A DNA stretch of 5,290 nt, taken from positions 1 to 5,290 of the forward strand of contig JAUIJG010000369.1 of assembly GCA_030431355.1 (NCBI GenBank), written 5' to 3'. Within the stretch, counting starts at the first letter, position 1; every line of letters begins with the position of its first letter. The translations under genes were made by a program, and so were the position numbers. Under the pieces are notes generated by a model. The model ran no database searches. It saw only the letters and a program-made list of their open reading frames with translations, and was not told the origin of the DNA. Positions 1-5,290 of this stretch are shown here, piece by piece. Source of the stretch: a bacterium (GTDB lineage: Bacteria > Cyanobacteriota > Vampirovibrionia > Obscuribacterales > Obscuribacteraceae).

Positions 1-270
1 GGAGTTTCCTGTTGCCGAGCGGTTTCCGAACTTAACAACAGGAATTTCCAGCGCTGCCAGAACAAAAGCTGTTGCTGTGGAGGTATTGAACTTTGAGAGT
101 CCGCTTCCTCCGGTTCCGCTCACATCGATAACGCCTCGACCGAGATCGGCAAGTCTTTTTGAATTTGATTGATTCTCTCCCCGAAGCTCCTCCAGGGTTC
201 TTGAAAAGCTCTCTTTATCAATATCTTCCACACCAGCTAGAAGACTCTGTTTGCATTCAATTAGTGACAT
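1..270 (-). CDS. trpD: Anthranilate phosphoribosyltransferase TrpD, N-terminal part (3' end outside window)
   Basis: TrpD transfers 5-phosphoribose from PRPP to anthranilate, the second committed step of tryptophan synthesis, in the cytoplasm. The first 90 codons are visible; the gene continues past base 1. The PRPP-binding glycine loop reads DVSGTGGSG (residues 49-57), followed by [11 protein letters not shown] (60-70) and [13 protein letters not shown] (78-90). These align with the family pattern GTGGDG, FN-STA and KHGNR-SGxSG. The enzyme is atypical. The usual Asp after GTGG is Ser56, the usual His of KHGNR is Phe81, and only about 51 residues precede GTGG where many homologues have 70-80, so the N-terminal helical domain looks shortened. 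The ATG overlaps the end of trpG by 10 bp, with GAGGAA at 283-288, 12 nt upstream, as a rather distant Shine-Dalgarno. Family assignment rests on motifs plus position after trpE and trpG. A TrpD-like paralogue is possible but less likely in this operon. Confidence 0.88.
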
Positions 271-863
271 AGCTCTGAAAAATTCCTCATAATGTCCGCA
301 CCACAGGGGGTGCCTATGGACTCGGGGTGAAACTGTAAACCGAATAGTGGATAGGAGCTGTGCTCCATCGCCATGATTGTGTTGGAAACTTCATCTATGG
401 CTGTTACTCTCAGCTCCGGAGGGAGCTTCTCTTTACAGACAGCCAGGGAGTGGTAGCGCATCGCTTCAAAAGTTTCAGGAATGCCTGCCAGTAGAACTGA
501 GCTGCTGACACTCTTGAGCTTTTTGATCTGTCTTATCTTTCCATGGAGAATCTCTTCTGCTCTTTCAACTTTGCCTCCGAGAATGTGGGCTATGCCCTGG
601 TGTCCAAGGCATATTCCCAGGATTGGACAACCAAGCTCTTCTCTTCTTGCGATTACCTCGGAACAGACTCCGAAGTCGGTCTCTTTACCCGGATGTCCCG
701 GACCGGGTGAGATAATAATGCCTTTCGGATTGAGCGCTTTTATCTCTTCGAAGCTGATTCTGTCGTTTAAGACAGTGGCAACTTTCTCCTTGTAGACTTC
801 TTTGACTTGCTGGACGATGTTGTAGGTAAATGAATCATAGTTGTCGATTACTAGAATGGTCAT
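261..863 (-). CDS. trpG: Anthranilate synthase glutamine amidotransferase subunit TrpG
   Basis: TrpG is the class I glutamine amidotransferase that releases ammonia from glutamine and passes it to TrpE. The 200-residue product has the normal length. It shows the N-terminal [14 protein letters not shown], the oxyanion-loop region ISPGPGHP (51-58), the nucleophile elbow GICLGHQG with catalytic Cys85, HGK at 107-109, RYHSL at 136-140, and QFHPES with the triad residues His179 and Glu181. All catalytic residues are intact. TrpG and PabA are nearly indistinguishable by sequence, and one protein may serve both pathways, but placement between trpE and trpD favours the Trp role. Start choice: a GTG at 867-869 is in frame two codons upstream, but the strong Shine-Dalgarno AGGAG at 873-877 lies only 3 nt from GTG and 9 nt from the ATG at 861-863, so the ATG is preferred. 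The start lies inside trpE (29 bp overlap), which points to translational coupling and balanced subunit synthesis. Confidence 0.95.
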
Positions 864-2349
864 GGTCACTTGCTCCTGAAAATGCTGGTTCTTTCTCTTT
901 CTTCTCTGGCTTCAGGCTTCGCCAGGAACGGGAAGGATAAATCAGATCCAGAATTGAGGCTGCTTTATTCAGGGTCTCTTTGCGTTCATCTTTTGCAATC
1001 GAGTCGTATACGATACCTGCTCCGGCTTGTACATGGGCTCTTTTACCGACGATGGTCGCCGACCTTATGGCGATAGCCAGATCAACACCGCCATCAAGAT
1101 CAAAAATGCCTACGGCGCCGGAATAAATTCCTCTTTGCTCCTCCTCCATGGAAGATAGAATCTCCAGGGCCCGCTTCTTTGGCGCACCCGATACGGTGCC
1201 CCGGGGAAAACAAGACTTGACGGTTTCGAAGACTGTGGCGCTCTCTTCAAGACTGCCTTCGAGATCGGTGGAAAGATGCATGACCTGCGGATATTTGACC
1301 ACCGACATTAGGTTCTTTACCTTTATTGAACCGGAGCGACAGACCCTACCCAGGTCGTTTCTACCTAAGTCGACGAGCATCATATGCTCTGCTTTCTCTT
1401 TCGGGCAGCCTGTTAACTCGCTCTCCATTCTCGTCTCTTCCGCTTCGTCCGTGCCTCTTGGTCTGGTGCCGGCCAGGGCTCTGAAGCGGGCGACACCATC
1501 TTGTATTTTTATCTGGCTCTCGGGAGATGCTCCCGTGTACTGAAAGGAGCCATAGTCCAGGTAGTAGGTATAAGGACTGCCGGAGTTGCTTCTTACTCTT
1601 TCATACAAAGAGCGGGCAGTGAGGTCACCTAAGTTCACCGAAAACCGTCGTGAAAGAACGATTTGAAAGGCTTCGCCTTCGCGAACAAACTCTTTGGTTC
1701 TCTCAACCATTTTTTCGTATTCAAGATCGCTTATAGACATCTCAAAATTCTCAGGCTCACTTCCCTGGGATTTAGCGCAGGCGCTGGTAGAAACGCAATC
1801 TTTGAGATTTCCTATCATGGAGGCTATCTCAAGACATTCTCCCTCTCCACGGTCGGAAATTATTGAAGCTCTACCATTTAACTCATCCGCCACTATATAG
1901 AGTGAAGGAATTTCCATTATGCTGTCCGGCAGGTTGGCGAATTTTTGCTTCTGTCTAGGAATATTCAGGGATGATTCGGTCAGGGCAAAACCCAGGTAGC
2001 CTATAAAAGCTGGAAGCGTAGGAAGGCTCTCTCTATGAGAATCGAGGGGCACAATCGAAATTGAATTTTTATAGTGATCATAGACATCACCAAGAAAGTC
2101 GAAAGGGCACTCTATATCAAAGTCCTGGGACTTGTCGCTTGCAAATTCTTGAAGGGTTGCCTTGAGTCCATTGATAGTAATTCTGTGACTTGCTCTAAGA
2201 ACGTAGAGCGTTTTGGAGTCGGACTGAAATATCTTGTCCGCACCCGCAATATTTACCAGGTCTTGAACCGGGCATGAATTCAGGGGCAGGGCGAACAGTC
2301 TTATTGACTCTTTGAAGATATCTTTGATCTTTACTGTATGGTTCAACAT
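835..2349 (-). CDS. trpE: Anthranilate synthase component I TrpE
   Basis: TrpE aminates chorismate and eliminates pyruvate to give anthranilate, using ammonia from TrpG. The 504-residue protein has the N-terminal domain at about 1-190 (with FIGYLGFA at 115-122) and the chorismate-binding domain at about 205-470. Motifs seen: EGEAFQIVLSRRF (224-236), ALAGTRPRG (291-299), EHMMLVDLGRND (321-332), VMHLS with His358, PRGTVSGAPK (382-391), QAGAGIVYDS (441-450) and ETLNKA (458-463). Glu321 and Glu458 match the expected Mg2+ ligands. Ala293 before GT, where PabB enzymes usually carry Lys, supports anthranilate synthase over aminodeoxychorismate synthase. Oddities: the N-terminal region lacks a clear LLES-type tryptophan-binding motif (nearest is LYVLRAS, 48-54), and residues from about 471 form a polar low-complexity tail whose last codons overlap trpG. 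The ATG has a modest Shine-Dalgarno (AAGAG, 2356-2360, 6 nt away). Expression is probably governed by the attenuator upstream. Confidence 0.96.
   Translation of the reverse strand: MLNHTVKIKDIFKESIRLFALPLNSCPVQDLVNIAGADKIFQSDSKTLYVLRASHRITINGLKATLQEFASDKSQDFDIECPFDFLGDVYDHYKNSISIVPLDSHRESLPTLPAFIGYLGFALTESSLNIPRQKQKFANLPDSIMEIPSLYIVADELNGRASIISDRGEGECLEIASMIGNLKDCVSTSACAKSQGSEPENFEMSISDLEYEKMVERTKEFVREGEAFQIVLSRRFSVNLGDLTARSLYERVRSNSGSPYTYYLDYGSFQYTGASPESQIKIQDGVARFRALAGTRPRGTDEAEETRMESELTGCPKEKAEHMMLVDLGRNDLGRVCRSGSIKVKNLMSVVKYPQVMHLSTDLEGSLEESATVFETVKSCFPRGTVSGAPKKRALEILSSMEEEQRGIYSGAVGIFDLDGGVDLAIAIRSATIVGKRAHVQAGAGIVYDSIAKDERKETLNKAASILDLIYPSRSWRSLKPEKKEKEPAFSGASDHDHSSNRQL
873..877 (-). 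promoter_or_regulatory. Shine-Dalgarno site of trpG, inside trpE
   Basis: AGGAG on the minus strand, 9 nt before the trpG ATG (861-863) and only 3 nt before the alternative GTG (867-869). It decides the start in favour of ATG. It lies within the last codons of trpE, so ribosomes finishing trpE pass over it. Confidence 0.75.
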
Positions 2350-2436: not shown

Positions 2437-2471
2437 AAAAAGCGGGCTGGCTTTTACTTTGCCTTGCCCGC
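2437..2471 (-). terminator. Rho-independent terminator of the trp attenuator (stem 3:4)
   Basis: On the minus strand, GCGGGC (2466-2471) pairs perfectly with GCCCGC (2442-2447). An inner GGC (2461-2463) pairs with GCC (2449-2451) across a small asymmetric internal loop, and the 3' arm runs directly into five T (2437-2441). This is a good intrinsic terminator signature, 87 nt before the trpE start and after the Trp-rich leader reading frame. A terminator between an operon's leader and its first structural gene is expected for attenuation: RNA polymerase stops here when charged tRNA-Trp is abundant. It would otherwise pointlessly cut off trpE. Confidence 0.8.
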
Positions 2472-2533
2472 ATATTGCTCAGGAAATCAGAATCCTATCT
2501 CAGTTCTCAGCAAAATATTTCGGTGGGCGCGGC
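2461..2533 (-). promoter_or_regulatory. Candidate antiterminator pairing (2:3) of the trp attenuator
   Basis: The segment GCCGCGCCC (2525-2533, minus strand) can pair with the 5' half of the terminator stem. GCC (2531-2533) pairs with GGC (2461-2463), and GCCC (2525-2528) pairs with GGGC (2466-2469), around a 2x2 internal loop. This uses terminator bases, so the two structures exclude each other. The intervening bases hold a small hairpin, TTGCT (2509-2513) with AGCAA (2475-2479) and nested AGGA with TCCT, which could bring the two arms together. Pairing was worked out by eye; stability was not computed. Confidence 0.55.
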
Positions 2534-2593
2534 TTCTTTCTTTTGCCATGGCCACCAGAGGTTATTTTGGAGCTGGATCTGTATTTCTTGCAT
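2507..2593 (-). CDS. trpL: trp operon leader peptide (Trp-Trp-Pro-Trp)
   Basis: A 28-codon reading frame on the minus strand starts with ATG (2591-2593) and stops with TGA (2507-2509). Trp codons occupy positions 13, 14 and 16, giving LWWPWQKK in the middle of the peptide, so three of four consecutive codons are UGG. It lies just upstream of a terminator and of trpE, and the Trp codons form the 5' arm of a hairpin that competes with an antiterminator. Known trp leader peptides have this design: ribosome stalling at UGG when tryptophan is scarce allows read-through into the operon. Unlike the E. coli case, segment 2 lies inside the reading frame, 12 nt before the stop codon. Weak point: no clear Shine-Dalgarno precedes the ATG, so initiation efficiency is uncertain. 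The peptide itself probably has no function after synthesis. Confidence 0.75.
   Translation of the reverse strand: MQEIQIQLQNNLWWPWQKKEAAPTEIFC
2522..2556 (-). promoter_or_regulatory. Hairpin over the leader Trp codons (1:2) of the trp attenuator
   Basis: On the minus strand, GGTGG (2552-2556) pairs with CCACC (2522-2526), and an inner GGC (2545-2547) pairs with GCC (2531-2533), leaving an A-rich loop. The 5' arm consists of the Trp codons of the leader peptide, and the 3' arm overlaps the antiterminator segment. This is the layout of the 1:2 pause hairpin in classical trp leaders. A ribosome stalled on the Trp codons would melt it and free segment 2. Confidence 0.5.
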
Positions 2594-2648
2594 GATTCTA
2601 TCGATGCTAACATGCTTTTGAAAAATTGCAATGGATCGAATCGTCTAG

Positions 2649-2680: not shown

Positions 2681-4768
2681 CTAGTCGATATCCAGATCCA
2701 GACCATCGGATTTGGCTCGTTCTATTAGTGCTTCGATGCGGGGCATTACTTCTGCTCTATTTGGCTCGCCGCTTTCGGTTACTTTGCCTTCCATGAGAGC
2801 CATGTAGTCTGCCAGTTCACCTTTGGAGATACCCAGGGAGAGCTGGTCGATTATCTCTCTATCCGTTTCGGTAAGCTCCTGGTTGTCTTTGAATTTCTGT
2901 CTTTCCCAGTCGCGAATGTCGGCTTCTTGCTCTTTAATCTCCGGTTCAGACTCTCTTCCCCGGCCCATGCGGCTCTCATTCTCTCTGTCGAACTGGGCTT
3001 CGAAATAGTCCGCGCCCTGGGTCAGCTCGGTCAGGGTCTGCATATGTCCGGGCTTTCCTGTCGATGGATAATCGATCAAAACAAGGCGACCGTCCACCTG
3101 GGAGATTCCGAACTGTTTATTCGGATTCGTACCGGGCTCTTCGAAGGCCAGGTCTTTGCCTTCGAGACCGCGGAAGTAGTCGTCTAAGAGGTGGTTCTCG
3201 TAGCGAGTACGCACGTCCACCAGCTCTTGTAAAAATAGATATGCGGTAACACCGGAGCCGATGTCCACTTCGTGCACCTTAGAGAGGAGTCTTGCGTCAC
3301 CGGGACGTTTGCCCCATTCAGTCTCCCATCCACCTTCAGGAACAATCGCTTTTAAAACGGCTCCGTCAGGCAATTTCTTGGTGGGAAGAACTTCAATTAC
3401 AAACAGGGCATCGTTGCCATAAAAGACTTTGCTGGGGTCGGCCTTCAAACCTCTGAAGTCTTTTGAGTGAGCTATGTACTCAGCTATATCGGTGTGATTG
3501 GTTTGATAGACAACTTCAGAAGCGAGTTCGCTTTCTCGAGGAGCTTCTTTGCCTGCTCTTTCTGTCTCCAGAACCTGGCCTTCGGACTTTCTTCCTTCGG
3601 GTAGTTTTGCCGCTTTCACATCGGCAAGATCTATGACGTCTGCTTCCGGTTTAACTCTACTTTCTGGACCTCCGGCTCTTTCCCGGGGACCGGTGTTCTC
3701 GTTAGCGTGACTTCTGCCTTCGGGTAATGCTTCTGTGATAGTTGATTTGGCTTCCGGTCTGAATGACTCCATGTTCAATACCAGGGAGCCGGCCGGTCTG
3801 CCGGAGCCTGCCATGGCGAAAGCTGGTTGCAATCTTGCGTCCGGCATGAGCAGATCGGTTAGTGCCTGGTCTAGATTACGGACTCCACCCCGGGCTTTTG
3901 ATTCGATAAAGAGGCTTCCTTGCTCGAATTTCTGACCTGCTGTTGTTTTGAAATTTGATATCGTCCGCGATACGGGGTCCTTGCCTTCCACGTGATTTTT
4001 TGTCAGGGGAGACTGGTGCGCTGAAGATAGTGCAAAGCCCACAAAACTCATGGCGTAAGCACTCTCTACCGAATCGGAGAAGCTGGCCGGCTTACCTTCA
4101 AAAAGAAGGCTTGAGGTCTGGGCGCTCACGAGACCGGCAGGAACGCCTGAAAGTGTAGCTGCTCCCACCGGGCTCTCCAGAACTCTTGTCAGTCCGGTGT
4201 TGCCGATGAGACCACGGGCGTTTTCTCTGATTCCGATACCGGAAGCTGTCAGGGTTCCGAAGGTTGCCGCACCGGTTAAACCGTTTTTCAGGCGGTCACC
4301 CCAGAAGTTCTCACTGTTGGCGTCCACCGGATGCATGGCCGAATCATAAATGAATCCTGAGAGGGCACCTTCAGCCACCGCATAGCCCTTCCATCCCAGA
4401 CCGGAATTAGCAAGATTCTGAGGCTTGAGAATCTTCCTGGCTCCGCCCCGGGCCAACATGAAAGGAAGGATCATTCCCACTGCGCTTGCCACGTGGTGGG
4501 TATGCCAACGGCTTGAGTATGTATCTGTGACTTCGTCAGGAGCTCGTAGAAAGCTGGTGGATTCCGCCAGGTCCGTTCCTGCTGCCTTGTCTACCAATTG
4601 CGCCACGCCGGTCAAGGGTCCCTGGAGTGCACTGTATGCCGCTGAATGGAGCGCCTCTCCTGCTAAATCCATAACCCCGGGATTTTGGTCTGCGTTTCCG
4701 TCACCCGATTTTTTGGAGCTTTCAAGACGGACTACACCGTCTAATTCTAGTTCTAGGAGGGGATCCAT
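2681..4768 (-). CDS. Large protein of unknown function: Gly/Ala-rich hydrophobic N-terminal half, possible degenerate kinase-like C-terminal domain
   Basis: No named family is recognised in this 695-residue protein. Residues 1-30 are polar with no signal peptide. Residues 33-250 contain several Gly/Ala-rich hydrophobic stretches (about 92-107, 125-145, 163-180, 198-220, 235-250), broken by polar segments such as FWGDRLKNGL (155-164); they could be membrane-associated helices or packed amphipathic ones. Residues 335-420 are a charged, probably disordered linker with LPEGR and ERAG each occurring twice. Residues 420-575 look globular. AVLKAIVPEGG (470-480), YLFLQELVDV (510-519), NPNKQFGI (548-555) and GRLVLIDYP (560-568) follow in the order of beta-3 lysine, hinge, catalytic-loop Asn and metal-binding Asp of a kinase or phosphotransferase fold, but no HxD-type catalytic Asp is evident. 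Residues 595-645 are highly charged and may be helical. The ATG has only a weak GGA (4776-4778) upstream. Linkage to trp may be incidental; no terminator separates it from the trp leader. Confidence 0.85.
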   Translation of the reverse strand: MDPLLELELDGVVRLESSKKSGDGNADQNPGVMDLAGEALHSAAYSALQGPLTGVAQLVDKAAGTDLAESTSFLRAPDEVTDTYSSRWHTHHVASAVGMILPFMLARGGARKILKPQNLANSGLGWKGYAVAEGALSGFIYDSAMHPVDANSENFWGDRLKNGLTGAATFGTLTASGIGIRENARGLIGNTGLTRVLESPVGAATLSGVPAGLVSAQTSSLLFEGKPASFSDSVESAYAMSFVGFALSSAHQSPLTKNHVEGKDPVSRTISNFKTTAGQKFEQGSLFIESKARGGVRNLDQALTDLLMPDARLQPAFAMAGSGRPAGSLVLNMESFRPEAKSTITEALPEGRSHANENTGPRERAGGPESRVKPEADVIDLADVKAAKLPEGRKSEGQVLETERAGKEAPRESELASEVVYQTNHTDIAEYIAHSKDFRGLKADPSKVFYGNDALFVIEVLPTKKLPDGAVLKAIVPEGGWETEWGKRPGDARLLSKVHEVDIGSGVTAYLFLQELVDVRTRYENHLLDDYFRGLEGKDLAFEEPGTNPNKQFGISQVDGRLVLIDYPSTGKPGHMQTLTELTQGADYFEAQFDRENESRMGRGRESEPEIKEQEADIRDWERQKFKDNQELTETDREIIDQLSLGISKGELADYMALMEGKVTESGEPNRAEVMPRIEALIERAKSDGLDLDID

Positions 4769-4922: not shown

Positions 4923-5290
4923 TTAGTCCAGGCTGAAAGATTCCCTGGAGAAGGGCTTTTCGGAGCCGGTGATCAAACCTTTCTCCACTCCTTTTATGGT
5001 GCCGTAGATGCTTCCTCCCACCAGACCATAGGGAACAGCCAGAAATGCTGCCATGGTTTTGGCGTACATATCGTTTTCGTCGGCGAAGGAGAAGTTCTGG
5101 CTTATGGAATCCTGCATGTCCAAGGTCATCTTCTTGACACTTTTGGTTATGCATACGGGCACGCCGATGGCCACTCCCATCACTGCTCCGCCCACGGCTT
5201 TCGGCAGAGCGACTGCTTTCTGGGTGGCGCTGGAGCCCCCGGATTGGGCCAGACAGGGTTCTATAAAAGGATTGAGAACCACTACCAGGG
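4923..5290 (-). CDS. Small exported or membrane protein of unknown function, 5' end outside window
   Basis: The reading frame is open to the window edge, and the visible part encodes about 121 residues ending in FSRESFSLD. A GTG at 5280-5282 is possible as a start. However, the codons before it continue a hydrophobic run, LVVVLNPFI, followed by EPCLAQSGG. This looks like the end of a signal peptide with possible cleavage after CLA, so the true start is probably beyond base 5290. Two Gly-rich hydrophobic segments follow: KAVGGAVMGVAIGVPVCIT, and after a polar stretch of about 30 residues, AAFLAVPYGLVGGSIYG. Both have small-residue GxxxG-like spacing suited to helix packing in a membrane. No catalytic motif is visible. 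It is 154 bp upstream of the 695-residue gene in the same direction and could share its transcript. The overlapping frame at 4882-5154 is arginine-rich and unlike a real protein. Confidence 0.65.
   Translation of the reverse strand, partial: LVVVLNPFIEPCLAQSGGSSATQKAVALPKAVGGAVMGVAIGVPVCITKSVKKMTLDMQDSISQNFSFADENDMYAKTMAAFLAVPYGLVGGSIYGTIKGVEKGLITGSEKPFSRESFSLD

Follow-up and report, generated by a model that had tools for sequence, protein, structure and literature searches.

Does the very short, Trp-rich reading frame in front of trpE at this locus encode the leader peptide of a trp attenuator, and does the surrounding RNA have the parts that such a device needs? The window (the whole stretch of 5,290 nt that was analysed) carries on its minus strand trpE, anthranilate synthase component I and the presumed target of regulation, at 835..2349 (Pfam PF00425 and PF04715; the top NCBIfam match, trpE_most, is under its cut-off). 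It is overlapped by trpG, the glutamine amidotransferase component (261..869; PF00117, and TIGR00566 above cut-off), and trpD follows as a gene start truncated by the contig end (1..270; PF00591, with TIGR01245 on the part present). The 695-aa gene 5' of the frame (2681-4768) has no Pfam or NCBIfam match; a 682-aa relative occupies the same place in another genome, G051 (L220, 2868-4916). Neither does a 119-aa ORF on the same strand, at 4923-5282, match any Pfam or NCBIfam family.

The frame was read directly from the minus strand at 2593-2507. It comprises 28 codons, with its ATG at 2593-2591 and a TGA stop at 2509-2507, and translates as the trpL-like peptide MQEIQIQLQNNLWWPWQKKEAAPTEIFC, an assignment based on a homologous frame in a sister locus and on conservation in the family. 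Codons 13-16 read UGG-UGG-CCA-UGG (2546..2557), with the first two Trp codons at 2557-2552 and the third, codon 16, at 2548-2546, exactly the arrangement that the original prediction had described. The frame is placed in an intergenic region of 331 nt, between the end of the 695-aa ORF (2681) and the trpE ATG at 2349. When this region was shuffled with dinucleotide content kept, a frame with an ATG and then three Trp in a stretch of four codons appeared in 1 of 20,000 shuffles, and any Trp-Trp in 370 of 20,000; the claim that such clustering would hardly arise by chance was thus borne out by the former count. The Trp-rich frame upstream of the window's trpE is confirmed as real.

Between the frame and trpE, the first trp gene, lies a GC-rich hairpin, GCGGGC-AA-GGC...GCC-A-GCCCGC, at 2471-2442 of the minus strand, which is a predicted intrinsic terminator. 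Its 5' arm (segment 3, 2461..2471) and its 3' arm (segment 4, 2442..2451) are followed by a run of five U (2437..2441), and trpE starts 87 nt past the U-run. The order of upstream gene, leader, terminator and trpE is therefore as had been claimed, with the ORF end at 2681, the hairpin at 2471-2442 and the trpE ATG at 2349. None of 20 shuffles of the window region yielded a hairpin plus U-run that equalled the real one, and over 35 loci 13 of 700 shuffles did. A generic promoter and terminator scan of the window gave results at chance level and did not list the leader hairpin, since its outer arms are 18 nt apart and the scan permits loops of 3-8 nt.

To place the window, its TrpE was compared with other proteins and genomes. 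In the protein search the best-scoring relative was P0002, with 51% identity over 86% of the length; the TrpE identities of the close metagenomic relatives P0002-P0005 and P0007-P0009 range from 46 to 51%. A scan of genome contigs with A1 kept 80 loci, mostly from other phyla, and only two cyanobacterial MAGs were used onward, L003 (Cyanobacteria bacterium REEB67) and L002 (Vampirovibrio sp.), which gave entry to the whole genomes G001 and G002. A TrpE match was present in 30 of the 53 genomes of G001's order; the 23 others have no match, and among these incomplete genomes and true losses are not told apart. The TrpE proteins of L085 and L088 are identical to proteins named Candidatus Obscuribacterales and the TrpE of L089 is identical to a protein bearing the name Candidatus Melainabacteria; since these named proteins are identical, the order is here called Obscuribacterales. 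In the TrpE tree, for which the tool issued a long-branch warning, the window is placed beside L084 with a support of 100/99, among the loci of the order. This position, together with the identities of L085, L088 and L089, upholds the earlier guess of a Melainabacteria-like lineage. L084, in genome G051, is the best match to the window (TrpE 50% identical) and has the same neighbours, namely a 682-aa protein without Pfam match, a leader, trpE, trpG and trpD, followed beyond trpD by proteins of the TrpC, TrpF, PALP (TrpB-like) and TrpA families. The second TrpE-like place of G002, L083, is absent from both the tree and the leader list.

The leader of L084 is MKLRQSQNQFWWSWFEETEPLSYWR, inside a frame that the ORF list opened at an upstream TTG, and a hairpin with a U-run that matches the window's lies 3' of it. 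Alignment of the two intergenic regions scored 92; no score above 67 arose in 1000 shuffles. Across the Obscuribacterales, a Trp-Trp leader frame and a terminator-like hairpin were found before trpE at 28 of 30 loci, a count made with looser limits on distance and start codon than the strict scan described below. Counted from the first Trp codon, the hairpin follows at 49-100 nt in the 28 relatives and at 86 nt in the window. One of the two exceptions is L107, where the sequence runs off the contig 85 nt upstream; the other is L090, where there is no leader before trpE and a divergent gene starts 41 nt from the trpE start. L090 is thus the one relative found that carries trpE and lacks a Trp-rich frame. 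The strict scan required a start codon and a position within 320 nt of trpE, and was applied to the Obscuribacterales-type group including the window and without L107. Trp-Trp was found at 25 of 30 loci, against 2 of 30 on the antisense strand and 53 of 3000 shuffles; for three Trp in four codons the counts were 20 of 30, 0 of 30 and 0 of 3000. ATG is the usual start, and GTG or TTG is the sole option at some loci. Hence the Trp codons and the frame, which had been expected to be conserved, are kept in relatives, L084 included, while the ATG, expected likewise, is not universal.

Outside the order, a Trp-rich leader was present at all seven of the nearest class loci (L081 and L113-L118, the dividing line being our own choice), before trpE or, where aroF leads, before aroF. 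Six of them, L081, L113-L116 and L118, have W-W-W or W-R-W leaders. In the seventh, L117/L219 of genome G099, a W-T-W-W leader stands before aroF, which opens an aroF-trpE pair and which we take to encode DAHP synthase; at L219 (1858-1965), the Trp leader thus precedes aroF and not directly trpE. The strict scan recovered 4 of these 7.

Beyond this group the strict scan found no Trp-Trp leader, neither at the 33 more distant class loci counted nor at 26 best-matching loci of the wider phylum. The class group consisted of 39 loci, of which L153 was too short and L119, L122, L142, L151 and L154 were not placed by the scan; the phylum group is not a random sample, being the best-matching loci minus L082, L158, L160 and L165, whose genomes were already included. 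With a wider criterion, two Trp within four codons, a re-scan by coordinates gave a match at 7 of the 39 class loci. Three of these seven, L132 (538-672), L138 (up to 512) and L142 (558-704), have in common one short Trp-bearing frame upstream of trpE and oriented with it. It contains GWL or FWL, plus QWAWCPV or EWAWCPV near an end such as QWAWCPVKVDNRIDRF, and may represent a small protein or a Trp leader of another kind. In the phylum loci L167, L169, L172 and L181, NAHWW- stretches with Trp-Trp occur far upstream of trpE; that of L181 was rejected as a leader since it is another frame of an upstream 138-aa gene.

How general the leader is was also addressed with sequence models. Model R1, built from 35 leaders and run over the 53 genomes of the order with part of the candidates scored, returned 28 sites at E 1e-9 or better, one per genome, all at trpE and all of them its own training loci. 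The next match was a second site in G039 (1.6e-8), followed by matches of 3.7e-5 and weaker. Over 289 class genomes, again with part of the candidates scored, R1 added G002, G084, G088, G096, G099, G102 and G113 at 2.0e-7 or better; matches at 2.4e-6 and weaker occur in others, e.g., G075, G151 and G216. Model R2 was built from 28 Obscuribacterales leaders with the window left out. Of 9 loci that bear a leader and had not been used to train it, it found 4 at E <1e-3 (L217, L219, L081 and L113), with L115 at 0.011, and missed L114, L116, L118 and the window; the best E in 65 control loci was 0.17. That a model trained on 28 relatives misses the window would suit a Trp-rich frame that arose by chance, untranslated and functionless. 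Against this stand its rarity in shuffles (1 of 20,000), the homologous leader of L084, whose intergenic alignment exceeds all 1000 shuffles, and the retention of the frame in 28 of 30 relatives, and we consider a chance origin very unlikely. The window leader is a diverged member of the family, recognised by its anatomy and through the sister locus L084, whereas the general model misses it.

The second site in G039 encodes the Trp leader MSLHYTQRASVWWRWSPALRLCCRVF (L217, 3270-3127, minus strand), which is followed by a hairpin and U-run and precedes a gene for a GNAT acetyltransferase, at a site apart from trpE. Homologues of this GNAT gene were located at 17 places in 16 of the 53 genomes, and a convincing Trp leader was seen only at the query place. 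A Trp-Trp stretch occurs at L225, L230 and L236, and W-x-W upstream at L228. As a single case, the G039 leader hints at a wider tryptophan regulon.

Attenuation further calls for alternative pairings, and these were examined by aligning 35 leaders. Roughly 20 nt past the first Trp codon lies a segment able to pair with the hairpin's 5' arm and loop. In the window this is segment 2 (2521..2533, minus strand), which keeps the same distance from the Trp codons as in the relatives and whose parts 2533-2531 and 2528-2525 can pair with segment 3 as an antiterminator. Over the 35 leaders, 67.5% of the cells of helix 2:3 are paired, compared with 24-45% when the segments are slid. Cells changed on both sides number 29, against 15.9 in shuffles, and none of 500 shuffles was as high; the covariation score is 0.249 against 0.200 (3 of 500 shuffles), all these shuffles ignoring the relatedness of the sequences. 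Double changes affect 8 of 10 pairs, which was matched in 56 of 500 shuffles, while the number of further pair types was matched in 319 of 500. From the window to L084, part of the helix changes from GCC:GGC to ACC:GGU. Helix 3:4, the terminator stem, is paired in 89.2% of its cells and has 27 doubly changed cells against 7.8 (0 of 500 shuffles).

Segment 2 paired with its own segment 3 better than shuffles (mean z of −1.99), reaching the 5% level in 19 of 35 loci, and ranked in the best tenth among the segments 2 of other loci in 11 of 35. For the window itself, 25% of shuffles and 35% of non-cognate segments 2 did as well as the actual 2:3 pairing at the conserved place, which is not significant alone. 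Segment 1, which carries the Trp codons (2545..2557, minus strand), may form a helix with segment 2. The window's 1:2 pairing was equalled by 4% of shuffles; over the 35 loci this pairing is weak (mean z of −0.41). The z-score of the leader fold was −2.55 and −2.64 for the window and only −0.90 for L084, no improvement on shuffles; fold energy taken alone is therefore no proof. An antiterminator (2:3) that excludes the terminator (3:4) is supported for the set of 35 leaders.

A candidate promoter was found at 2604..2631 of the minus strand as a consensus match, with −35 TTGCAA (2631-2626), a 16-nt gap and an extended −10 TG-T-TAGCAT (−10 at 2609-2604), its function being suggested by this likeness. 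The same kind of site, a TTG-type −35 with a gap of 15-18 nt and an extended −10, is present upstream of the leader at 20 of 35 loci, against 0.7% of shuffles. The distance from the end of the −10 to the start codon chosen by the script is 20-59 nt in 19 relatives, and to the ATG of the window it is 10 nt. The window's trp transcript would thus start within a few bases of the AUG, and the mRNA may be nearly leaderless.

The same features bear on a different mode of action, in which the ribosome stalls on the Trp codons of the leader and acts through trpE translation, RNA stability or Rho, while the hairpin merely ends the transcript of the upstream gene. The weakness, over all loci, of the 1:2 pairing that the classical scheme needs would fit this mode, and so would the status of the terminators at these loci, which are predicted from sequence only. 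However, a hairpin that merely ended the upstream transcript would leave unexplained its place after the leader, at the distances from the first Trp codon given above for the window and the 28 relatives, the compensatory changes in the helix that segment 2 can form with its 5' arm, and the promoter-like site between the upstream gene and the leader. This alternative was therefore judged improbable, and transcription attenuation is preferred.

Since T-box RNAs and TRAP control trp genes in other bacteria, a tryptophan-sensing device of either kind was also considered. At gathering score, Rfam gave no match, RF00513 and T-box included, in the window or in the relatives L084, L089, L099 and L108. 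A relaxed scan likewise gave no match near the leader, none of its four weak matches overlapping it, and the T-box reading was set aside. The TRAP family (PF02081) was found in none of the 53 genomes of the order, with a positive Bacillus subtilis control. TrpR (PF01371) was above cut-off in none of the 53 either, the E. coli and B. subtilis controls being positive; the one match below cut-off, in G047, has 25.4 against 27 bits. Both the TRAP and the TrpR readings were set aside, as neither protein is above cut-off in these 53 genomes, and we regard control by a T-box or by TRAP as exceedingly unlikely.

Taken together, these results make it very probable that the window's trp operon is controlled by ribosome-mediated transcription attenuation. 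The leader frame with its Trp codons and the hairpin are shown, as are their conservation and covariation in relatives, and the type of control that the original prediction had named gains support from the 28 of 30 loci of the order with a Trp-Trp frame and hairpin and from the L084 homologue. The transcription start, the translation of the leader, the stalling and the RNA switch are inferred, and the device would work as follows. Transcription would begin just upstream of the leader frame, with a ribosome trailing the polymerase. When charged tRNA-Trp is ample, the ribosome would clear codons 13-16 and reach the stop at 2509-2507, where it would hinder segment 2; segments 3 and 4 (2471-2461 with 2451-2442) could then form the terminator, and transcription would end before trpE. 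With charged tRNA-Trp in short supply, the ribosome would stall on UGG-UGG-CCA-UGG and cover segment 1 (2557-2545). This would leave 2533-2525 free to pair with 2469-2461, so that the terminator would be blocked and trpE-trpG-trpD transcribed.

In the enteric scheme, four RNA segments form an alternative antiterminator and terminator, the latter before trpE. The window resembles E. coli trpL in its short leader with clustered Trp codons, its four predicted segments and its predicted terminator before trpE. Unlike E. coli, it belongs to another lineage, its leader and hairpin sequences are unrelated as far as tested, and TrpR is not above cut-off in the 53 genomes of the order. The E. coli leader belongs to the Rfam family Trp_leader, RF00513 (PMC3766115). 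Unlike members of that family, the window and the four relatives do not match its covariance model, so they would function alike while standing outside it. Multiple UGG codons and alternative hairpins before a trp operon are also shared with Actinobacteria, a different phylum likened here by description; in Corynebacterium and Streptomyces, UGG is doubled or tripled in the leaders, the antiterminator and terminator hairpins are complementary, and one such attenuator is reported before trpS (PMC1262725).

The trpL mRNA of Sinorhizobium meliloti starts at or near the leader AUG, and the mRNA of the window may do the same. A further likeness is that the S. meliloti trpL product, peTrpL, is the Trp leader peptide of a transcription attenuator, for which a role in trans is also reported (PMC7298713). 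As for the lineage, a 2010 paper notes that leader-peptide systems were known only from Proteobacteria and Actinobacteria before Firmicutes were added (PMC2965389), and one from 2016 states that there were no reliable data on an attenuation mechanism in cyanobacteria (PMC4833913). No description of trp attenuation in Melainabacteria or Obscuribacterales was found in the open-licence literature, among the matches listed, and to that extent the suggestion that this control is undescribed there holds. The best reading is a known kind of device, classical trp attenuation, in a lineage for which the open-licence literature yielded no description of it.

A broader picture can be put forward only tentatively, as a possibility that we favour less than the attenuator itself. 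The Obscuribacterales and the neighbouring group would share a trp attenuator, possibly of independent origin, that serves as the main tryptophan sensor where TrpR and TRAP are missing. It would keep its place before the first gene of the operon even where that gene has become aroF, would have been taken over by a GNAT acetyltransferase gene in one genome or more, and would act, at the window's locus, on an almost leaderless mRNA.

Very short genes tend to escape gene callers, and the leader brings a set of them to attention. The mechanism is a textbook one, and the surprise is the lineage in which it is found. Retention of a trp attenuator in an order from the Melainabacteria side of the cyanobacterial phylum would widen the range of the mechanism, and it offers a candidate tryptophan sensor for bacteria that are known mostly from metagenomes.
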